Below are positions 1,584-41,647 of a DNA stretch of 41,803 bases, piece after piece (the first letter of the stretch is position 1; every line of letters begins with the position of its first letter). The notes beneath the pieces are model-generated. The model made no database searches. It worked only from the letters and a program-made list of their open reading frames with translations, and was not told the origin of the DNA. The DNA is from a virus. The DNA is taken from positions 1 to 41,803 of IMG/VR virus record IMGVR_UViG_3300021197_000274, one strand, 5' to 3'. A program made the translations under genes and the position numbers.

Positions 1584-1595
1584 GAACAATTGTTC
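1584..1595. promoter_or_regulatory. perfect 12-bp palindrome GAACAATTGTTC upstream of internal protein genes
   Basis: The 80-base gap 1535-1614 holds a perfect palindrome, GAACAATTGTTC. An identical copy lies at 41636-41647, just after the capsid gene. A weak promoter-like pair (TTGTGA at 1546, GATAAT at 1567, only 15 bases apart) precedes it. The core is shared with the GTACAATTGTTCG repeats near 22.8-25.2 kb. A regulator binding site is the most economical reading; function is not shown. Confidence 0.4.
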
Positions 1596-14910: not shown

Positions 14911-17076
14911 ATGAGTGTAGTGAGGTTTGGCAATACTACATCTAGTGGTTCTTCTCATAATTTAGTTGAAGAGATTTCTACTAGGGTTCCGAAAAGCGAA
15001 CAAATCAGGGTGCTGCAAGACACGTTCCCTGCTGGTCGCATTCATGGCAAAACATTTTATATCGGATCATTACTTGGTGATCCGGGGCAATCGTTGAAGA
15101 TTGACATTGATCCTAGTTCTAGTCACTTCATGCGTGGTCAGGATTTCAATGGTGGTGTCGGTATCGGGGGCATTGTCAAGATATTGATGGAATCTCGTGG
15201 CATGAAGTTGTCAGAGATTAAGGAGATGTTTTCGCAATATCTTGGTGACAGTCCAAGAATTGTTCGTGATAACGCCCCAGTCGAAAATCCTATTAAGCCG
15301 CAGTATAATGCAAACAGTCCGTATGATGCGGAGTATGTATACACTAATGCTGATGGCGAGGTGCTTGTTTCTGTCAGGCGGTATAACGTCAAGGACATTG
15401 CTGGCAATCCCATGCTCAATACCAAGGGCAAGCCCAAGAAAGAGTTCCGTCCGTTTATTGAGGGTTCGCCATATTCTAGGTTTCCTGATGTCAGGCCATT
15501 GTATAATATCCCGAACATTTTGGCATCTGAGCGTGTCATATGGGTTGAGGGTGAGAAGTGCGCTGATGCTCTTAATCATGCTGGTTACACAGCAACATGT
15601 ACAATTGGCGGAGCTGGTGCGCTAACCAAGAAGACTGCGCCGCAGTATGACTTCTCTCCGTTTCATGGCAAAGAGTTAATCATATGGCCTGATAATGATA
15701 ATGCTGGCAAAAAGCTGGCTGATCTTATACAGGACTTGGCTCTTGCTGCTGGTGCCAAGTCAGTAACAATGTTGACTCCGCCACAAGGTAAACCTGATCA
15801 ATGGGATGCCGCTGATGCTTTGTCAGAGGGCTTTAACATTGCTGATTTCGTTCATACAAAATCAAATGTTACGAAAAGTAACATTAATTTACTTGATGAA
15901 AGTTTGTTGATTAATAGGTTCACAGGGCCAGCACCAGAACAAAAGTTCTTGATTGATGGTACGTTTCCGCTCGGGGTGCCGATTTTGTTCGCCGCAGCAG
16001 GAGATGCTGGTAAGGGTATGATGACACTGGACATGGGCATGAAGATCGCCTCGGGTGCGCCTATGTCTAATGCTTTTGGTGGCATGGTACAGGAGTTCGG
16101 TAACGTAGTCATCTTCACGGCAGAGGATGATGAAGCAGAGATGCACAGAAGAATTGACAGACTCGATCCATTCGGGGCTAGGTTTGATTACAAGTATCAG
16201 ATTCGGATTGTGCCATTACCTAATGTCGGGGGTGTATTTCCTATTCTAACAGAGGCTGGCGGAGAGTTCAGAACCAGCGACATCTTTGATCGCATTTACG
16301 AACAAATGTTACAGATGCAGGATTTGAAGTTAATTATCTTTGATCCGTTGGCATCATTCGTACATGCCGATGTTAATGCTGATCCAGCGGCTGGTGCTGC
16401 GCTTACTGGTTTGCTTGCCAAGACCGCAACAGAGACAGGGGCATCGGTGCTAGTATGTCACCATATGACAAAGATTAAGGATGATGCAGTGGTCAAGACT
16501 CCAGAACAGGCTCGTAATCTGATTCGGGGTACTACTGCATTGGTTGATGGTGTCAGGTCTTCGTTTGCATTGTGGCAAGTTGATGCGGCTCGGGGTCAGA
16601 AAACATGTGAAAAGCTGGGAGTTCCGTATCAGCGCAACACATGCTTTGATGGCGCTGTTGTTAAATCCAATGGCCCGGCAAGTAGAATTGTTCGGCATTT
16701 TGTCAGAGATCCAATGACTGGACTGTTGGAAGATCGAACAGAAGCAATTGAAGCGTTGGAGCGCGGTAGTGCAAGAGAGATTAAATTAGAGGCCATGTAT
16801 GATTGGATTGTCGAATCAGAGCGTAATGGTGTGGCTCTAACGCATATGAGCGGTAACAATGGAGTTTACAAGCGGTCAGAAGATGCTGATGCTCCTGAGT
16901 CACTGCAAGGTCTTAGCAAGCGTGTGTTAGAAGAATATGTTCGTAATTTACAATCTTTGAATCGCATCAATAAGTTTCAGTTGTCGGCAGCAGGGGGCAA
17001 GATCTGGCTTGGTGCTGCTGATGGTTCTATGTCTAGGGGTGAGTACGAAGCTGTTACAGCTAGGGATAATGTGTGA
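14911..17076 (+). CDS. TOPRIM primase fused to RepA-like (AAA_25) replicative helicase
   Basis: A protein of about 721 residues. The TOPRIM domain shows VIWVEGEKCADAL (about 209-221) and IIWPDNDNAGKK (about 256-267), supplying the Glu and Asp-x-Asp metal ligands for primer synthesis. The helicase domain has Walker A AAAGDAGKG (about 361-369) and Walker B LKLIIFDPLAS (about 473), with CHHMTK as a later RepA-like motif. The start at 14911 has GGGG 10-13 bases upstream; 14896 is an alternative at a TGATG junction. Primes and unwinds DNA at the phage fork. No polymerase gene is in the window, so the host replicase may be recruited. Confidence 0.9.
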   Translation: MSVVRFGNTTSSGSSHNLVEEISTRVPKSEQIRVLQDTFPAGRIHGKTFYIGSLLGDPGQSLKIDIDPSSSHFMRGQDFNGGVGIGGIVKILMESRGMKLSEIKEMFSQYLGDSPRIVRDNAPVENPIKPQYNANSPYDAEYVYTNADGEVLVSVRRYNVKDIAGNPMLNTKGKPKKEFRPFIEGSPYSRFPDVRPLYNIPNILASERVIWVEGEKCADALNHAGYTATCTIGGAGALTKKTAPQYDFSPFHGKELIIWPDNDNAGKKLADLIQDLALAAGAKSVTMLTPPQGKPDQWDAADALSEGFNIADFVHTKSNVTKSNINLLDESLLINRFTGPAPEQKFLIDGTFPLGVPILFAAAGDAGKGMMTLDMGMKIASGAPMSNAFGGMVQEFGNVVIFTAEDDEAEMHRRIDRLDPFGARFDYKYQIRIVPLPNVGGVFPILTEAGGEFRTSDIFDRIYEQMLQMQDLKLIIFDPLASFVHADVNADPAAGAALTGLLAKTATETGASVLVCHHMTKIKDDAVVKTPEQARNLIRGTTALVDGVRSSFALWQVDAARGQKTCEKLGVPYQRNTCFDGAVVKSNGPASRIVRHFVRDPMTGLLEDRTEAIEALERGSAREIKLEAMYDWIVESERNGVALTHMSGNNGVYKRSEDADAPESLQGLSKRVLEEYVRNLQSLNRINKFQLSAAGGKIWLGAADGSMSRGEYEAVTARDNV

Positions 17077-17528
17077 TGGGCTTGGGAATAGTTCCTATGA
17101 CTTTACGAGAGGCTAATGAGTTTGTGAATAACTTTCATCGTCATAATAAACCCACTCATGGAGGAAAATTTTCTGTAGGCGCAGTTCAAGGTGAAGATTT
17201 GGTTGGCGTTGCCATAGTGGGTAGGCCAGTGGCTAGAATGCTAGACGATGGCTTTACTGCCGAAGTCACTAGAGTTTGCGTTCCTGATAGCGCACCTAAA
17301 AACACATGCAGTTTTTTATATGGTCGATGTTGGCGCATATGGCAACAAATGGGTGGTAAGCGCATGGTCACTTACACTTTGCAGGAAGAGTCTGGATCTT
17401 CATTGCGTGGAGCTGGTTGGAAGATCGTAGGAGAAGTAAAGCCTACTGAATCTGGTTGGGATCGTGAAAATCGTAAACGGGATTGGCAGCCAATATACGG
17501 GCAGTTAAAATTTAGGTGGGAAGCATGA
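17076..17528 (+). CDS. XF1762-family protein (GNAT-like fold)
   Basis: A 150-residue protein starting at a TGATG junction with the primase-helicase gene. Conserved features are LREANEFVNNFHRHNKP, a GVAIVGRPVAR segment, EVTRVCVPD, and the CSFLYG...TYTLQEESGSSLRGAGW block, which resembles the acetyl-CoA-binding and C-terminal strands of GNAT N-acetyltransferases. XF1762 proteins are common in phages; a substrate is not established, and a link to DNA-base modification of the Mu Mom kind is a hypothesis. The neighbouring early region also encodes a cytosine methyltransferase. Confidence 0.8.
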   Translation: MGLGIVPMTLREANEFVNNFHRHNKPTHGGKFSVGAVQGEDLVGVAIVGRPVARMLDDGFTAEVTRVCVPDSAPKNTCSFLYGRCWRIWQQMGGKRMVTYTLQEESGSSLRGAGWKIVGEVKPTESGWDRENRKRDWQPIYGQLKFRWEA

Positions 17529-19151: not shown

Positions 19152-19447
19152 GCGTTTGGTTTTATCATAACGTGTTAGCACCGAAACAGGTCAAGTCAGC
19201 CGAAGAGGTTGGCTTGTCTGTATTTCGTCATTGGGATGGATTGTATCTTGATGTTGATATTCTTGAGCAAGAGATGCAAGACACTATTGAAGCTGTTCAG
19301 CAACAATTCTGTCGTGAGGGCAGGATCTGGCAAGGGCAAAGGTATCAGGGCAATCCAACTTTAGGGTCAGATAACAATACGGTTATTCGTGGCGGTAGCT
19401 TGCCGCCGCAAACAAACAATTATGTTAAGAAGAAGGACAGACACTGA
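19148..19447 (+). CDS. hypothetical early protein (GTG start)
   Basis: A 99-residue protein using GTG at a GTGA overlap with the previous stop; no in-frame ATG lies nearby. It begins SVWFYHNVLAPKQVKSAEEVG and ends in a basic KKKDRH. The tail is polar and probably flexible (TLGSDNNTVIRGGSLPPQTN). It overlaps the methyltransferase start by one base (TGATG), implying coupled translation. Function unknown. Confidence 0.7.
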   Translation: MSVWFYHNVLAPKQVKSAEEVGLSVFRHWDGLYLDVDILEQEMQDTIEAVQQQFCREGRIWQGQRYQGNPTLGSDNNTVIRGGSLPPQTNNYVKKKDRH

Positions 19448-20694
19448 TGGAGCATAATTTTGGTAATGTCGTCAGCCTATTTGATGGCATGTCGTGTACA
19501 CAGATCGCTTTGCAGAGGATGGGAATTGTTCCTAAACGATACTTTGCCAGTGAGGTTGACAAGTATGCAATCACAGTTGCCAAGGCTAATTTCCCCGACA
19601 CGATACATGTGGGCGATGTTCGTAACGTAATATGGCCTGAGATATTTGACGGTGAGCCAATTGACTTGTTGATCGGCGGCAGTCCGTGTCAGGGATTTTC
19701 GTTTGCAGGGGGTCAATTGGCGTTTGATGACCCGCGCAGCAAATTATTTTTTGAATTTGTTCGTGTTCTGAAAGAATGCAAGCCGAAGTATTTCCTGTTG
19801 GAAAACGTAAATATGAAACAGGAGTTCCAAGATGTCATAAACGAACAATTGGGATGTAAGCCTGTGGATATAAATTCTAATCTTGTCAGCGCACAGAACA
19901 GGCGCAGGTTGTATTGGACAAACATTCCAGTCAGGTCGTTGCCAGAGAATAAGCGCATATACCTAAAGGACATATTGGAAGATGGCTTTACAGACCGCGA
20001 TAAGGCGCATTGTGTGGACGCTAATTACTTCAAGGGCGGCAATCTGAAGTCGTACTTTGAAAAACACAGGCGGCAGTTGATATTTGACTTTGCCGAAGAA
20101 GAAGAAACAGAAGGCACGGTTCTGGCTGGTCATGCTGATCTGAAGGGGCATGATTATAATAGACGCGTGTATCACCCAGATGGCAAAGCACCAACGCTTG
20201 CAGCGGCCTCTGGCGGCAATCTTGAGCCGAAGATATTACAGATCGCTCGAGGCGCTAATGAAGGTGGGATCAGGGCAGAGGATGGCAAGGTTCCGTCAAT
20301 GACAAGTTCATCATGGGAGCATAACAATTTGTTGCTTTACCCAGCGTCTATCGTAGGACGTAGGCTCAATAATGGTGTGCGTGATGATTACAATAAAGAT
20401 GTTCCTGTTAGTCAGTGCCTAGAGGTGCATGACACCAAGGGCAAGGCTAGGTGCCTGTCAACGGTGGAGAAAGATACGCTCGTATCGCCATTGCCAGAGG
20501 GTCGCTATCCAGATGCGTACAATGACGAAATGCGGCTTATGTGGCGCAAATTAACGTGTGTGGAGTGCGAAAGACTCCAGACTGTTCCAGATAATTATAC
20601 CGCACATGTGAGCAATACACAGAGGTATAAGATGTTGGGCAATGGATTCACGGTGGATGTAATCCGCCATTTGTTAGGAGGTATGGACAGATGA
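19447..20694 (+). CDS. DNA (cytosine-5) methyltransferase
   Basis: A 415-residue enzyme that transfers a methyl group from S-adenosylmethionine to cytosine. Motif I is VVSLFDGMSCTQIAL (8-22), motif IV GGSPCQGFSFAG with catalytic Cys81, motif VI ENV (119-121), motif VIII QNRRRLYW (150-157), and motifs IX/X lie at the end (ECERLQTVP, KMLGNGFTVDVIRHLL). The LFDGMSCxQIAL form is common in phage DNMT3-like enzymes. No restriction endonuclease lies next to it, so it is an orphan enzyme probably protecting phage DNA or affecting its regulation. Target sequence cannot be read from the protein. Confidence 0.95.
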   Translation: MEHNFGNVVSLFDGMSCTQIALQRMGIVPKRYFASEVDKYAITVAKANFPDTIHVGDVRNVIWPEIFDGEPIDLLIGGSPCQGFSFAGGQLAFDDPRSKLFFEFVRVLKECKPKYFLLENVNMKQEFQDVINEQLGCKPVDINSNLVSAQNRRRLYWTNIPVRSLPENKRIYLKDILEDGFTDRDKAHCVDANYFKGGNLKSYFEKHRRQLIFDFAEEEETEGTVLAGHADLKGHDYNRRVYHPDGKAPTLAAASGGNLEPKILQIARGANEGGIRAEDGKVPSMTSSSWEHNNLLLYPASIVGRRLNNGVRDDYNKDVPVSQCLEVHDTKGKARCLSTVEKDTLVSPLPEGRYPDAYNDEMRLMWRKLTCVECERLQTVPDNYTAHVSNTQRYKMLGNGFTVDVIRHLLGGMDR

Positions 20695-22725: not shown

Positions 22726-23190
22726 CGGCGAATTTGTGGGTGGACTTCTAGCGCGGGGGGATCGGGCTTGCTCCTCGGGCTTTTATAGAAATTGTTCGGG
22801 ACTGGATGATCGGGGTCGGGGTTCTTCGGGGTCTTCGGGGTCGGGTTTCCGGGGTTAGTATAGTCTTTTCTCCGATTATCGGGGTTTCGGGGTGATCGGG
22901 ACTCCAGTACCCGTATAATTGTTCGGGAACTGGGCTGCGCCTCCCAGGGCAGCTGCAGCCTCTTCGGGGTTTAATCAGTACAATTGTTCGGGATCGGGCT
23001 TGACTGGGCTGCATAAGCCAGGGAATCATGAGCTGTCCCAGGTAGAAAGTTGTTCCTCCCTTGCTTTTTACCTGGGCGCAGCACCGGGGGAGGCCGGGCA
23101 TAACCAGTACAATTGTTCGTTAATCGCCTCCTTTGCTGCAGCCCCCAGTTTCCTGGTCAAGTCTCAAAAAAAATAAAAAAAGTGCATTTC
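22726..23190 (+). repeat. GC-rich repeat island A: TCGGGG runs, GTACAATTGTTCG copies, G-quadruplex motif
   Basis: About 470 non-coding bases follow the small terminase gene. AATTGTTCGGG-type motifs occur at 22789, 22913 (GTATAATTGTTCGGG), 22978 (GTACAATTGTTCGGG) and 23107 (GTACAATTGTTCG), all in + orientation. The copy at 22913 is flanked by CCAGT-A-CCCG and CGGG-A-ACTGG, forming a stem-loop. About fifteen TCGGG or CCGGG units cluster in 22759-22995. Four GGGG runs at 22812-22840, with loops of 2, 6 and 5 bases, make a canonical G-quadruplex pattern. GCTGCAGC-type palindromes also recur. Frames through it are repeat translations, not genes. Confidence 0.7.
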
Positions 23191-23195
23191 ATCCC

Positions 23196-23224
23196 TTGCA
23201 TGTTGTGCAGTGATTGCTTATATT
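23196..23224 (+). promoter_or_regulatory. promoter with spacer site GCAGTGATTGC
   Basis: TTGCAT (23196-23201) and TATATT (23219-23224) are 17 bases apart. The spacer contains GCAGTGATTGC (23207-23217), one base from the perfect palindrome at 18288. It lies directly after repeat island A and drives the 23255 and 23604 genes. Confidence 0.7.
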
Positions 23225-23603: not shown

Positions 23604-24014
23604 ATGATTTATTTTGCATATGGGTCAAATTTAAACAAACGACAGATGAGCATGCGGTGTCCCAAGGCAAAAGCCTTGGGCGCTGGCTATCTCACAGGGT
23701 GGCGGTTGGTCTTTCGGGGCGTGGCTGACATTGAAGAGAACCACACAGATCCAACAGTAATGTTGCCAGTCGGGTTCTGGGAGATTACAGACGACTGTTT
23801 GCAAGCGTTGGATTTCTATGAGGGCTATCCTCGGCTTTATCGGAGAGTCAACATCAACGGGATGATGACCTACCGCATGAACAGTTCGGGGTATTCAGCA
23901 CCTCATGAGTCCTATTTCAACGCAATCCGTCAGGGGTATCATGACTTCGGGCTTGACGAGTCGGAGTTATACCATGCTCAAGATTGGGCGGACGAGCTGG
24001 AGGAGGCTATGTAA
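23604..24014 (+). CDS. gamma-glutamylcyclotransferase-like (GGCT/AIG2 fold) protein
   Basis: A 136-residue enzyme of the fold that cyclises gamma-glutamyl groups to release 5-oxoproline and an amine. The substrate-binding YGSN motif is at residues 6-9 (YFAYGSNLN) and the catalytic Glu is Glu73 in LDFYEGYPRLYRR. Length and motif order fit a minimal AIG2-like member. It sits in the same accessory zone as the amidoligase at 25345, an enzyme type that makes amide bonds, so a shared pathway is possible. The gene itself uses TCGGG-containing codons like the surrounding islands. The real substrate is unknown. Confidence 0.88.
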   Translation: MIYFAYGSNLNKRQMSMRCPKAKALGAGYLTGWRLVFRGVADIEENHTDPTVMLPVGFWEITDDCLQALDFYEGYPRLYRRVNINGMMTYRMNSSGYSAPHESYFNAIRQGYHDFGLDESELYHAQDWADELEEAM

Positions 24015-24190
24015 TGCAAATTGTTCGGGTTGAATCGAGGGCTGCAGCCGTGCGCTGCGGCCCATTTTTTTTGCCCGGGCCGTCCGGGTACTGGGAAAAA
24101 CCCGTACAATTGTTCGTATACTGGGTACTGGCGCTGCAGCCCAGTTCGTCTTCAGCTCGTGAAAAAAAAGTATCAAATAGTTCTTTTTGT
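24015..24190 (+). repeat. repeat island B with AATTGTTCGGG and GTACAATTGTTCG copies
   Basis: Non-coding bases between the cyclotransferase gene and the next promoter. Motif copies lie at 24016-24029 (GCAAATTGTTCGGG) and 24104-24116 (GTACAATTGTTCG). A stretch of 23 bases around the second copy (24096-24118) is identical to 25175-25197 in island C. A terminator (24039-24072), a CCCGG/CCGGG hairpin just after it and two GCTGCAGC-type palindromes are also present. Confidence 0.7.
24039..24072 (+). terminator. Rho-independent terminator after the cyclotransferase gene
   Basis: GGGCTGCAGC (24039-24048) pairs with GCTGCGGCCC (24054-24063), with one G-T wobble and loop CGTGC, followed by A and eight T. 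Strong intrinsic terminator closing the 23255-24014 cassette. Confidence 0.85.
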
Positions 24191-24192
24191 TG

Positions 24193-24221
24193 TTGATTCT
24201 TGTGCAGTGATTGCTTACTCT
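24193..24221 (+). promoter_or_regulatory. promoter with spacer site GCAGTGATTGC
   Basis: TTGATT (24193-24198) and TACTCT (24216-24221) are 17 bases apart, with GCAGTGATTGC at 24204-24214. Twelve bases of the spacer (TGTGCAGTGATT) are identical to the 23196 promoter. It drives the run of tiny genes 24245-24955. Confidence 0.65.
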
Positions 24222-25000: not shown

Positions 25001-25270
25001 CGCCCAGTCCCGGTGACTGGCGTACAATTGTTCGGGTTATCGCCAGTCCGGGGAGGAACTGGGCAGCGCAGCGCCCAGGTGAATCGGGGAATTGTTCGGG
25101 TTCGGGATCGGGATTCGGGGCAGCAGCTGCAGCTCGGGTCTGGGATTCGGGTTCGGGGTCGGGCTTTCCCAGTAAAAAACCCGTACAATTGTTCGTAATT
25201 GGCTGCCCAGGCCCTGGCCCGGCGCCCGGATTTTTTCAAAAAAAACGCTGCTTTTCTGCCAAAAAACGCA
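25001..25270 (+). repeat. GC-rich repeat island C with GTACAATTGTTCG copies and two G-quadruplex motifs
   Basis: Non-coding. Motif copies at 25022-25036 (GTACAATTGTTCGGG), 25090-25100 (AATTGTTCGGG) and 25183-25195 (GTACAATTGTTCG); a degenerate one lies just before the terminator at 24958. Nine TCGGG units lie in 25084-25163. Two canonical G-quadruplex patterns are present: GGG runs at 25098-25120 (loops 3, 3, 4) and at 25142-25163 (loops 4, 3, 2). An inverted repeat CTGGGC/GCCCAG is seen at 25058-25077. A weak terminator-like CCGG-CGC-CCGG followed by T6 ends it. Confidence 0.7.
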
Positions 25271-25279
25271 CAATTGCAC

Positions 25280-25308
25280 TTGAATTATGTGCAATGAGTG
25301 CTTATTTT
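25280..25308 (+). promoter_or_regulatory. promoter with spacer site GCAATGAGTGC and flanking inverted repeat
   Basis: TTGAAT (25280-25285) and TATTTT (25303-25308) are 17 bases apart, with GCAATGAGTGC at 25291-25301. In addition TTGCAC (25274-25279) and GTGCAA (25289-25294) form an inverted repeat around the -35. It drives the amidoligase gene. Confidence 0.65.
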
Positions 25309-25344: not shown

Positions 25345-26529
25345 ATGACAACGATTTTTAGAAGTGACGTATATCCTACATTTGGTCATGAGGCGGAATG
25401 CGCTAATGGTGGCGCATCTCGCAATTGGTCAATTAGCAGATGGCAGGATGAATTGAACGATGCTGGCTATAATTGGGTAAACGCAATTCATGATGGCACC
25501 TGTGAAGTAGACGTTGAGTTTATCATTCCGCCTTTCCCATTATGTGATGCCGCAAAAAGTGACATTGCCGAATTGTTCGCGTGGATTGAAAGCAAAGGCG
25601 CGATAGTTGGCCGTCATAAACTAGGCGGCCATGTTCATATGGGAAATCGCCTAGTACATACCAATATAAGCAAGTCTGATTTTTGGCGTGCATCCAAGGC
25701 CGAATACGCAACGCATAGACGCTATTATAATCCATCAGCATCCATGACGGCACCATTGCCATTGGCATTGGTAAAAGACGTTGTTTGCCGCTATGCCGAG
25801 CATAGACAAGATATTGATAGCATTCTTCCGCAATCACGCCGCAATGGGCGCAACACTATGATACAGAATATAGATCATGTTGCGCCCAATGGGCGCGACT
25901 ATTCCGCTTTTATGCAGGCTGAAAATGCTAGTCGTATGAGTAATATATTAGGCGGTAAATTTCGCGTTGTTAATCTTGAAACATGGTCACGACTAAACAC
26001 TATTGAATTTCGCCAGCATCAATCAACATTGGACGCCCAAAAACTTTTTGGATGGTGCCGCCTTATTGCTAATATGTTTCAGCATTCCGACTGGCATAGA
26101 ATGGATTATAACGCACCATCATCAATAATAGTTGATACGCCAGAAAATCCATTCAGGCGTGGGTCACGCATTGGCGTTTTATATACAGCCATGCGCGTTG
26201 ATGGTGGCGCGACTACTCGCGATCTAATGAATGCAACCGGATGGTCAGCGGATACAATACGCGCTCGCGTTTCCGAAATACGCAATCGTGACGACATAGG
26301 ACAAGGCGGTGTGTTATGCCATACGCAACAGGCATACGGCAATTCATACGGCGATAGCCAAGGCAATCATGATCTCAATGGTTATGAAGTTGTCCGCACA
26401 ATTGAAACACAAGTGGCAGGTGGAGTAGGTTTAATGCCAGAAAACAGGCGCGGTATGACAAGCATATGGGCGGGTTTATCAGATGAATTGTTTGAATACT
26501 TTAATGCAAGGCGCGAACAATTACGATAA
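25345..26529 (+). CDS. amidoligase-family enzyme fused to a C-terminal winged helix
   Basis: A 394-residue protein. The amidoligase_2-like (glutamine-synthetase-related carboxylate-amine ligase) signatures are FGHEAECAN near residue 14, CEVDVEFIIPP near 53, GGHVHMGN near 94, and the hallmark TIEFRQHQSTLDAQKLFGW near 220. These enzymes are predicted to form amide bonds using ATP. Residues about 273-325 look like a winged helix (LYTAMRVDGGATTRDLMNAT, then SADTIRARVSEIRN). I chose ATG 25345, with GGAG 9 bases upstream. Arg is mostly CGC here, unlike the CGT/AGA-rich neighbours, suggesting separate acquisition. The gene has its own promoter and terminator. Substrate unknown. Confidence 0.82.
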   Translation: MTTIFRSDVYPTFGHEAECANGGASRNWSISRWQDELNDAGYNWVNAIHDGTCEVDVEFIIPPFPLCDAAKSDIAELFAWIESKGAIVGRHKLGGHVHMGNRLVHTNISKSDFWRASKAEYATHRRYYNPSASMTAPLPLALVKDVVCRYAEHRQDIDSILPQSRRNGRNTMIQNIDHVAPNGRDYSAFMQAENASRMSNILGGKFRVVNLETWSRLNTIEFRQHQSTLDAQKLFGWCRLIANMFQHSDWHRMDYNAPSSIIVDTPENPFRRGSRIGVLYTAMRVDGGATTRDLMNATGWSADTIRARVSEIRNRDDIGQGGVLCHTQQAYGNSYGDSQGNHDLNGYEVVRTIETQVAGGVGLMPENRRGMTSIWAGLSDELFEYFNARREQLR

Positions 26530-26755: not shown

Positions 26756-26784
26756 TTGACAGTTTAAGCAACCATTGCCATATT
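26756..26784 (+). promoter_or_regulatory. promoter of the XRE regulator operon with site GCAACCATTGC
   Basis: TTGACA (26756-26761) and CATATT (26779-26784) are 17 bases apart; TATTAT two bases later is an alternative. The spacer holds GCAACCATTGC (26768-26778), whose arms GCAA and TTGC match those of the 18288 site. This promoter drives the small gene and the XRE regulator, so the site is a natural autoregulation point. Confidence 0.7.
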
Positions 26785-26812: not shown

Positions 26813-27052
26813 ATGAAACAATACAGACTTAAAATTGGTGGTGATCCGATTGATTTCTTCGCGGAGAACCCAGAGGGCTTCTTGGATGCTTGGCGTTCTG
26901 TCAATCTTCGAGCCAGCTCTGACGACAAGGAATGGCTAAGACAGGCTGCGATGTCTGCATGCGACTGGGCAGGTGGTCCTATTCGTTACGACAATGCAAC
27001 TGTGTTTGCACAGGACATGATGAGCAAGGGCATGCTGGAGGAGATAGGGTAA
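26813..27052 (+). CDS. small hypothetical protein upstream of an XRE regulator
   Basis: A 79-residue protein beginning MKQYRLKIGGDPIDFFAEN, with AAGGAGAG upstream. It contains EGFLDAWRSVNLRASSDDKEW and FAQDMMSKGMLEEIG. No family recognised. It is the first gene of a two-gene operon whose second gene encodes a helix-turn-helix protein and whose promoter carries an inverted repeat, an arrangement seen in anti-CRISPR/aca operons and in toxin-antitoxin or repressor pairs. That is context only. Confidence 0.75.
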   Translation: MKQYRLKIGGDPIDFFAENPEGFLDAWRSVNLRASSDDKEWLRQAAMSACDWAGGPIRYDNATVFAQDMMSKGMLEEIG

Positions 27053-27411
27053 TGCAGAAATCTATGACATCTTACAGCATGATGAAGGGCAAGGAGTTGT
27101 CGAACATGCGGTCTAAGATAGGCAAGAGCCAAGAGGCTTTTGCAGATGCTTTGGGCGTAAGTTTGCGTATGTACAGCTATTACGAGTGTGACAGGAAGCC
27201 CGTACCGAAGACAGTTGAGTTTTCTGCTCGTTACATTTTGTCAAAAAAGGATGGTGAGATGCCCACTTCTGGACTGTCTGACTTTGACAGGGACAGGATT
27301 GGTCGTTTGCAGTACGCTTTGAGGGGTGTTGAGGGTTTTGACCACAAGTCAGACCAGATTTTAAGGCAGTTGGCAGATGAGATCGAATATCTGTTGTCAA
27401 AGTTTGACTAA
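27052..27411 (+). CDS. XRE-family helix-turn-helix regulator
   Basis: A 119-residue DNA-binding protein starting at a TAATG overlap with the preceding gene; GGAGGAG lies upstream. Residues about 14-65 are a lambda-Cro/XRE helix-turn-helix (ELSNMRSKIGKSQEAFADALGVS, then RMYSYYECDRKPVPKTV). The C-terminal part is helical (ILRQLADEIEYLLSKFD) and may dimerise. It probably binds the palindromic spacer sites in its own promoter and in the four related early promoters. The assignment to those sites is inference; the HTH call is strong. Confidence 0.88.
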   Translation: MQKSMTSYSMMKGKELSNMRSKIGKSQEAFADALGVSLRMYSYYECDRKPVPKTVEFSARYILSKKDGEMPTSGLSDFDRDRIGRLQYALRGVEGFDHKSDQILRQLADEIEYLLSKFD

Positions 27412-27455: not shown

Positions 27456-29321
27456 ATGAACAATTTCATGGGGCCAATGGCACCGCCTCCGGCGGCACCT
27501 GGACAACCGCAGAAGCTGGAAATACGCACAAATCCTAATCAGAGAGCTAATTTCAAGCAATTTATGCGACAGCGCACGGCACCCATGATGCCGATGCAGC
27601 AACAGCCTCAACCCATGCCTCAACCCATGCCCATGATGCAACCACAGATGCCGCTTCGCATGGAGATGGGTGGTAGTGTTGATATATTTGATCCCATGTA
27701 TTCTGCTCCGATGATGGCACCGCCAGCCCCTATGGGTTTTGATGACGGTGGTGCAGTTCCGCCGCGCCGTACAGACATTCGTGGTCAGGATCATATGCTG
27801 TCGTACATTACGCCTGACGAGGCCGACATCTTGGAGGCTTTAGGTGGCAGTGGCGAGGCTGGTCCTATGGGTATTCCGACATTCATTGGAGGTGGTGGCG
27901 GTGCAATGGGTGGTTTTGGTGGCACAAAGTCTTCATACGATGGCCCTGACAATGATAAGGATAACGATAAAAGTCAAGGCAGGCTTGAAGACGCGGATGC
28001 TGCCGCAGCCGAGAAACAGAAGGCTAAAGAAGAGTCAGACAAGGAGGCGGCAAAAGCTACCTCTGATGAGATCAATCGTATGCAGGACAGGCTTGAAGCT
28101 GGCCTTATTGATACCGCTGGAACAGGCCAAAGACCTGAAGTAAGCATGAGCAGAAAAAGCGAAGCTGAAATTAATCAAGATAGATTAGTTGATATAGCCT
28201 CTATGGGAACTGGGCAACAACCCACTGACATTTCTGGCATACCTGGCATTAGCAATGTTGATATAACCCAGCCTGACGATGCTGTTGATTCAGGTGCATT
28301 TGACATTGACTTGGATGACACTGAATTGGATTCAACAGAAGTTGCTGCTGCTGAACAGAAGGCAAAAGCGGATCTTGCCTCAAGTATTGCGGCTCTTGGC
28401 ATGCCTGATGAGTATGATCCTGTTACCACTACTGACGCTCAAGGCAAAAAAACAACAGTTAGCTTTGATGAAGGAGAGACTCCAGACTACGATGATCCAA
28501 ATCGTGCTGGATATGAGCGTGGTTTACCAACAGGACTAAAGTTTGTAACCACACCCACAGGCACAAAGATAACACAGAATCTCGCTGGTCTGACAGCGGC
28601 GCAAAGGAAGTCTTTGCCCGGTTACATGAACCCTACACAGAACACAGGATTTTTCGCTGGTCTTCAAAATTTTTTAGGGGAGGATCCTATGGCGGATCCT
28701 TTAGGGTTTGAAGTAGATGAAACCACAGGTCAGGTAACTGGCGTTATTAATGAACCCTCTCTTCCCGGAATGATGGGCGCTGTTACTGATATTTTTACAA
28801 ATTCGTTTTTCCCTGATCCTTCAACATTTACATCAGACGAACAGTTATTTACACAGAGGCCAAGTGTTTACACAGGTTTTGGCCCCGGATCGCTTCAGCA
28901 ATCTGGCTCTAAGAAAGATCAATCTGGTGATCCAGTAAAACAGCCATTTGATCCGTGTCCTGAAGGTTTTTCTCTGGTTAATGGTGTTTGCACACCTATT
29001 GAACAGACGGATACAGGGGGCGGCACTCCGAATCAATTAGGCGGAGGAGCAGCAACGCCTGCATCTCCTCTTGCACCGCAACCTGTACTTGTTCCATCTA
29101 CTAGAGTTAGTCCACCTGTTTCTGGTCAGATGCCTGTTGGATATGGTTCACCATTTACTGGCGTGGCGAATCCTTCTGTTGCAAGCAACGCGGCTTTATA
29201 CCAGAACATGTTGAATCAGCAGGCCATGACTCCATTGCGGTTGCAGGACGGTGGCCCTGTATCATCACGGCTGGATCAGGCGGCTGGCAATTTCTTGAAA
29301 GCCATACAACCAGCGGCGTAG
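27456..29321 (+). CDS. large low-complexity virion protein next to the large terminase
   Basis: A 621-residue protein with AGAAGGG upstream of its ATG. The N-terminus is Pro/Met/Gln-rich with near-repeats (PQPMPQPMPMMQPQMP). GG-V motifs recur (MGGSVDIF, DDGGAVPPRR, DGGPVSSR), and a DIRGQDHMLSYITPDEADIL segment resembles the GEFV-type motif of tail proteins. A Gly-rich patch, an acidic middle and a CPEGFSLVNGVCTP mini-motif follow. No enzymatic motif. Start of the packaging/head transcription block; an internal or portal-associated virion protein is likely. Confidence 0.7.
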   Translation: MNNFMGPMAPPPAAPGQPQKLEIRTNPNQRANFKQFMRQRTAPMMPMQQQPQPMPQPMPMMQPQMPLRMEMGGSVDIFDPMYSAPMMAPPAPMGFDDGGAVPPRRTDIRGQDHMLSYITPDEADILEALGGSGEAGPMGIPTFIGGGGGAMGGFGGTKSSYDGPDNDKDNDKSQGRLEDADAAAAEKQKAKEESDKEAAKATSDEINRMQDRLEAGLIDTAGTGQRPEVSMSRKSEAEINQDRLVDIASMGTGQQPTDISGIPGISNVDITQPDDAVDSGAFDIDLDDTELDSTEVAAAEQKAKADLASSIAALGMPDEYDPVTTTDAQGKKTTVSFDEGETPDYDDPNRAGYERGLPTGLKFVTTPTGTKITQNLAGLTAAQRKSLPGYMNPTQNTGFFAGLQNFLGEDPMADPLGFEVDETTGQVTGVINEPSLPGMMGAVTDIFTNSFFPDPSTFTSDEQLFTQRPSVYTGFGPGSLQQSGSKKDQSGDPVKQPFDPCPEGFSLVNGVCTPIEQTDTGGGTPNQLGGGAATPASPLAPQPVLVPSTRVSPPVSGQMPVGYGSPFTGVANPSVASNAALYQNMLNQQAMTPLRLQDGGPVSSRLDQAAGNFLKAIQPAA

Positions 29322-41635: not shown

Positions 41636-41647
41636 GAACAATTGTTC
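41636..41647. promoter_or_regulatory. perfect 12-bp palindrome GAACAATTGTTC after the capsid gene
   Basis: Four bases after the capsid stop and 7 bases before a terminator hairpin lies GAACAATTGTTC, identical to 1584-1595. Both copies sit in gaps of the late region. Possible regulator site. Confidence 0.4.

Follow-up and report, generated by a model that had tools for sequence, protein, structure and literature searches.

A phage amidoligase fused to a winged-helix domain and the operator-like palindromes that accompany its gene

The stretch of DNA analysed here (the window) is the whole of IMG/VR record IMGVR_UViG_3300021197_000274, 41,803 bases in length. It comes from a tailed phage, with genes for terL, portal, major head protein, primase/helicase, a Cas4-like exonuclease and a lysozyme; comparison of the large terminase places the pelagiphages HTVC027P and HTVC023P and the phages 023Pt_psg01 and DSL-LC04 (55-62% identical) among its nearest cultured relatives. 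The gene of interest lies among the following features.

25345..26529, + strand: amidoligase-winged-helix gene, 394 aa, a real open reading frame by translation, Pfam, conservation and AlphaFold2
25345..26130, + strand: glutamine-synthetase-like (GS-like) amidoligase core, residues 1-262 (PF12224, Foldseek matches to YbdK and GS, catalytic residues)
26146..26391, + strand: DUF3489-like winged helix, residues 268-349, with predicted recognition helix 302-313 and wing 323-349 (AlphaFold2, DUF3489/HTH_24)
26392..26526, + strand: conserved C-terminal strand and helix, residues 350-394 (conservation, AlphaFold2)
23604..24014, + strand: GGCT/AIG2-like gamma-glutamyl cyclotransferase gene, the usual neighbour (PF06094, 3.1e-7; phrog_2520, 2.6e-25)
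27052..27411, + strand: gene of an XRE-type HTH regulator, candidate ligand of site B
25280..25308, + strand: predicted sigma-70 promoter of the amidoligase gene, TTGAAT - 17 - TATTTT (sequence; repeat family D3)
25291..25301, + strand: site B (GCAATGAGTGC), in the spacer of that promoter and assigned to the XRE protein

The open frame runs upstream of 25345 as far back as 24862; conservation starts at the ATG at 25345, directly before which lies GGAGATTAAG. The preliminary description of this DNA had read the protein as a phage amidoligase, bearing three signature motifs, fused to a winged-helix domain, and all three motifs (FGHEAECAN, GGHVHMGN and a third) are found in it. Pfam Amidoligase_2 (PF12224) matches the window protein at 1.8e-8, with 35 bits placing it above the cut-off of 22, and matches 50 of 53 family members (E 0.01); PHROG 2443 ('amidoligase enzyme') also matches the window protein. 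The residues of a GS-like metal/ATP site, namely ExE (E16/E18), a second glutamate (E58), HxH (H96/H98) and EFR (E221/R223), are present and are kept across 137 distinct relatives, with E18, E58, H96, R165, E221 and R223 invariant or nearly so (136-137 of the 137). Hence the protein is under selection as an enzyme, and the loss of ligase active-site residues that had been named as grounds for abandoning the assignment was not encountered. The best Foldseek matches of the whole model were YbdK (probability 0.99) and glutamine synthetases, with low global TM-scores (0.34-0.38), and against viral amidoligases the whole model aligned mostly over about 260 columns. A sequence relative of the whole protein was not found in the PDB. 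The predicted reaction of the core is ATP-dependent amide-bond formation between a carboxylate and an amine.

In the AlphaFold2 model of the full protein (alignment of 53 sequences, mean pLDDT 89.9) the C-terminal region forms a canonical winged helix-turn-helix (helices 275-283, 291-298 and 302-313; strands 323-326 and 346-349), which sits between long strands 253-264 and 352-363, and a conserved helix (380-393) ends the protein. When the C-terminal part was modelled alone from 52 diverse sequences (pLDDT 87.8) the same winged helix was obtained, the three helices and two-stranded wing being present in both models. The domain expected at about residues 273-325 was therefore confirmed as a winged helix by the AlphaFold check that had been suggested for it, although its boundaries had to be moved to about 268-349. 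Residues 277-312 of the window protein match DUF3489 (PF11994) at 9.5e-5, the 22.9 bits being below the curated cut-off of 29.5, which four related records exceed; the HTH_24 match (E 0.24) is not significant. Family-wide, DUF3489 matches 51 of 53 members (best 4.6e-9) and HTH_24 matches 21 of 53 (best 3.1e-5). Foldseek searches with the C-terminal part gave weak matches (best E 0.1) to the MepR, Nur/Fur, BrxR and Lrp winged-helix regulators. The winged helix was found in every member long enough to judge, down to 33% identity. Judged by Pfam, AlphaFold2 and Foldseek together, the proposed fusion is real, its active site is intact, and it is old, in that relatives at only 33% identity keep it.

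Relatives of the protein are encoded by 228 IMG/VR stretches, from which 80 loci were kept. The search for the same architecture that had been recommended found the fusion in IMG/VR phages alone, most often close to terS and a GGCT gene, and a single scan across 84,980 species genomes of bacteria and archaea confirmed no relative. The usual gene order is terS - GGCT - amidoligase - F3 - XRE regulator - F10 - terL, where F3 is a protein of about 80 residues and F10 is a large variable protein. A GGCT gene is present in 88 of the 105 amidoligase loci having at least 2.5 kb upstream, and in 54 of these it has the same orientation as the amidoligase gene and lies no more than 1.5 kb upstream of it.

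The intergenic DNA around these genes contains a repeated palindrome, site A, which has the core GAACAATTGTTC and, over 173 sites, the consensus AACCCGWACAATTGTTCGGGTT. The shorter core ACAATTGT occurs 10 times in the window versus about one copy expected, and the near-palindrome GTACAATTGTTCG has five exact copies, all intergenic around the GGCT and amidoligase genes. The copies in the window are listed below.

22978..22990, + strand: putative operator A (GTACAATTGTTCG)
23107..23119, + strand: putative operator A (GTACAATTGTTCG), with a predicted promoter some 90 bp downstream, at 23196
24104..24116, + strand: putative operator A (GTACAATTGTTCG), with a predicted promoter some 90 bp downstream, at 24193
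25022..25034, + strand: putative operator A (GTACAATTGTTCG)
25183..25195, + strand: putative operator A (GTACAATTGTTCG), centred at about -126, before the amidoligase promoter; loci L001, L002 and L004 are arranged alike
25267..25279, - strand: degenerate putative operator A (GTGCAATTGTGCG, 1 mismatch), centred at about -42 and directly adjoining the -35 box
22913..22925, + strand: weaker putative operator A (GTATAATTGTTCG)
1584..1595, unstranded: distal putative operator A (GAACAATTGTTC), immediately preceding the gene at 1615
41636..41647, unstranded: distal putative operator A (AGAACAATTGTTCT), after the major head protein gene

A LexA-type box was rejected, as the centre of the GAAC-N4-GTTC element is essentially always AATT, whereas LexA boxes have variable centres. 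Whether a locus has GTAC or GAAC half-sites followed no clear rule with respect to its recognition-helix sequence. Several other contigs have a lone copy of site A 12-21 kb from the cluster. The G-rich intergenic stretches at 22740-22900 and 25090-25170, which adjoin site A copies, contain repeated TTCGGG/TCGGGGT words and isolated half-sites (AATTGTTCGGG).

Measured from the predicted transcription starts, the centres of site A fall near -41, -51, -61 and further multiples, with a period of about 10.75. The helical phasing (R = 0.68; 37 positions from 86 non-redundant regions) was not equalled in any of 20,000 random sets, where the promoters are best consensus predictions and related loci are partly dependent even after thinning. 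A regulator that contacts RNA polymerase from one face of the DNA would give such a pattern, and activation through that contact is the mode favoured by the phasing at -41/-51/-61.

Site A accompanies the enzyme. In a set of loci fetched by protein similarity only, each with at least 2 kb upstream, ACAATTGT was found within 2.6 kb upstream in every one of the 98 distinct loci and more than once in 93, against a mean expectation of 0.053 per locus. A separate count over 122 loci includes loci found through the palindrome itself, and for that reason the 98-locus count is used as evidence in its place. Among terminase-bearing relatives, at least two exact sites were present in 44 of 45 with the enzyme and in none of the 14 without it (Fisher p about 1e-12 over all loci and 3e-4 for a smaller set, both of which ignore shared descent). 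Sampling through terS (at least 3 kb downstream) gave 40 loci with the enzyme and at least two sites, one with the enzyme and a changed site (L276) and two with neither (L263 and L252); another terS-sampled locus, L273, has six sites on a contig that stops before the position of the gene would be reached. Sampling through terL gave four loci with enzyme and sites and eight with neither. Four cultured relatives having terS and terL, each examined over 21 kb surrounding these terminase genes, had neither the enzyme nor site A. The most informative locus is L263, where a close terS, F3, terL and GGCT are kept, and both the enzyme and site A are absent. L276 has GAACTATTGTTC five times in place of site A, and its recognition helix and wing are strongly diverged (the domain is 29% identical to that of the window); this is the only member in which a clear operator change was seen. 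As the presence and absence of site A track the enzyme, the enzyme probably also controls its own gene cluster. The link is correlational, many of the loci share descent, and a second factor may have been lost along with the enzyme.

A scan of the whole viral collection with the palindrome (AACCNGWACAATTGTTCG) returned at least 120 stretches, and the matches listed were mostly terS/GGCT/amidoligase loci. Also among the matches listed were about 16 loci without family genes, most of them single-site, where a rough estimate gives about 10 chance matches. One of these observations concerns contig 3300030116_001444 (L152), which has four cores, no family genes in the 5.6-kb stretch read, and seven GAACAATTGTTC palindromes in its 55-kb record.

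A different palindrome, site B (GCAATnATTGC), lies in the spacers of sigma-70-like promoters at 23207-23217, 24204-24214, 25291-25301 and 26768-26778 of the window. At least two copies of site B were present in 28 of 40 loci with an XRE gene and in none of 10 loci lacking one, and loci L131 and L077, which have diverged winged helices, retain site B. These comparisons make the XRE protein the likely ligand of site B. The exact composite pattern of site A plus site B found no match in the viral collection, because the promoter-proximal copy of site A is degenerate.

Other ligands and other roles for the domain were weighed against these data. XRE dimers typically bind short palindromes and the XRE gene (27052-27411) is a conserved neighbour in many loci, so that site A could be taken as the operators of this downstream repressor, with the winged helix doing something else. 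This we consider highly unlikely and reject, as 10 complete loci in which XRE is absent between F3 and terL or the F10 gene still carry site A (nine with at least two copies, the tenth with a single copy), and it is site B that tracks XRE. Copies of site A just downstream of terS might point instead to packaging signals bound by the small terminase subunit, or to replication or recombination sites. We hold that reading to be the most improbable, given that site A precedes promoters with helical phasing and also occurs at distant genes, and terminase as the ligand was discarded in view of L263, L252 (both of which have a close terS, yet no site A) and the four cultured relatives.

A host regulator or some other phage regulator might bind site A, the enzyme-less phages infecting other hosts or having lost both; most contigs are incomplete and the sample of enzyme-less relatives is limited to 14. 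Site A is, however, concentrated around the amidoligase gene throughout the lineages, those at 33% identity included, its centre is essentially always AATT, unlike LexA boxes, and the changed operator occurs in L276, the phage with the strongly diverged winged helix. Hence we regard such a regulator as unlikely. Some winged helices bind proteins, and the domain is inserted between paired C-terminal strands and has an unusually conserved long wing, features that would suit a structural or substrate-binding ligase module, gripping a protein substrate for example, that does not bind DNA. That role is also decidedly unlikely in our estimation, since it does not account for palindromes of operator type that disappear when the enzyme does. 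Taken together, the tracking of the enzyme, the XRE-less loci, the tracking of XRE by site B, and L276 leave the amidoligase winged helix as the only product of the gene block that tracks site A. The suggestion in the preliminary description that the protein regulates its own locus thus has strong comparative support, the operator-like palindromes appearing and vanishing with the enzyme; no support emerged for its other suggestion, action on a DNA-associated protein.

From this sequence evidence the protein is probably a bifunctional enzyme and transcription regulator, the winged-helix dimer of which would bind site A and control its own operon and neighbours. The GS-fold domain would join a carboxylate to an amine with ATP, and gamma-glutamyl-type or amide chemistry seems probable owing to the GGCT neighbour, in keeping with published predictions. 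The C-terminal winged helix, as a dimer, would bind the 12-22 bp palindrome AACCCGWACAATTGTTCGGGTT, of which 3-7 copies are spread over the terS-GGCT-amidoligase region and others precede or follow a few distant genes; the bound regulator would thereby act on its own operon and the neighbouring genes, activation being favoured by the site phasing. Occupancy of the active site (by substrate or an acyl-phosphate intermediate) could set the DNA affinity of the dimer through a coupling like that of BirA. Rather more tentatively, and at somewhat less than an even chance, the protein may represent an undescribed class of phage regulator in which a GS-fold ligase regulates its own operon and a few late genes, coupling transcription to a gamma-glutamyl or amide metabolite.

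BirA is a group II biotin protein ligase, an ATP-dependent amide-forming ligase with a winged helix that binds palindromes at pathway promoters (PMC4016012). In the proposed model the phage protein would resemble it as an amide ligase fused to a winged helix binding palindromes, but the catalytic folds are unrelated (the core is GS-like, not of the biotin ligase fold), the winged helix is C-terminal rather than N-terminal and the operator is another one. The phage protein is an analogue of BirA, not a member of its group, and would add a phage BirA analogue on an unrelated fold.

Phage amidoligases have been predictions since 2009, and their role has usually been guessed to be cell-wall modification. 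The Amidoligase_2 members of phages phiEco32, tf and Salgado have the same core and catalytic residues and often adjoin GGCT (AIG2) genes (PMC5513430, PMC5498523), amidoligase and GGCT occur together in Arthrobacter cluster AL phages (PMC5513430), and for podoviruses with both a peptidoglycan-modification role was proposed (PMC5498523). OM43 phages pair the amidoligase with a glutamine amidotransferase (PMC10580990); this GATase_6 partner was not found in 16 records related to the window, unlike the phiEco32-type and OM43-phage cassettes. The known phage amidoligases match the core only, where alignments show it: matches in BFVD and INPHARED stop short of the winged helix, and the amidoligase of gut phage MT835576 ends before that region. 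The pelagiphages HTVC023P and HTVC027P are the closest cultured relatives by large terminase, yet are without amidoligase and site A in the 21 kb around their terminase genes. An amidoligase that is apparently its own transcription factor would tie its reaction to gene control, and site A provides a defined putative operator for direct binding tests. The consensus AACCCGWACAATTGTTCGGGTT can also serve as a sequence marker for a widespread marine phage group.

To our knowledge DUF3489 has no known function; here the domain is fused to an enzyme, which offers a first testable function for the family. Five related records (G003:18522, G004:32843, G005:14883, G008:12912 and G011:11854) encode a further DUF3489 protein, which stands alone, is about 150-165 residues long and has no counterpart in the window. 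A Mom-like protein is encoded at 17073-17528 of the window (PF25680, E 2.6e-5, just under the cut-off), and in three of 40 related records such a protein scores above it. With a Mom-like gene in only four of the 40, not tied to the amidoligase, a part for the enzyme in Mom-type DNA modification was rejected. Between the XRE gene and terL, 27456-29321 encodes a 621-residue proline/methionine-rich protein without a family match, the counterparts of which differ greatly in length. Upstream of terS, 19447-20694 encodes a C5-cytosine DNA methyltransferase, and several relatives have homologues at the same place.
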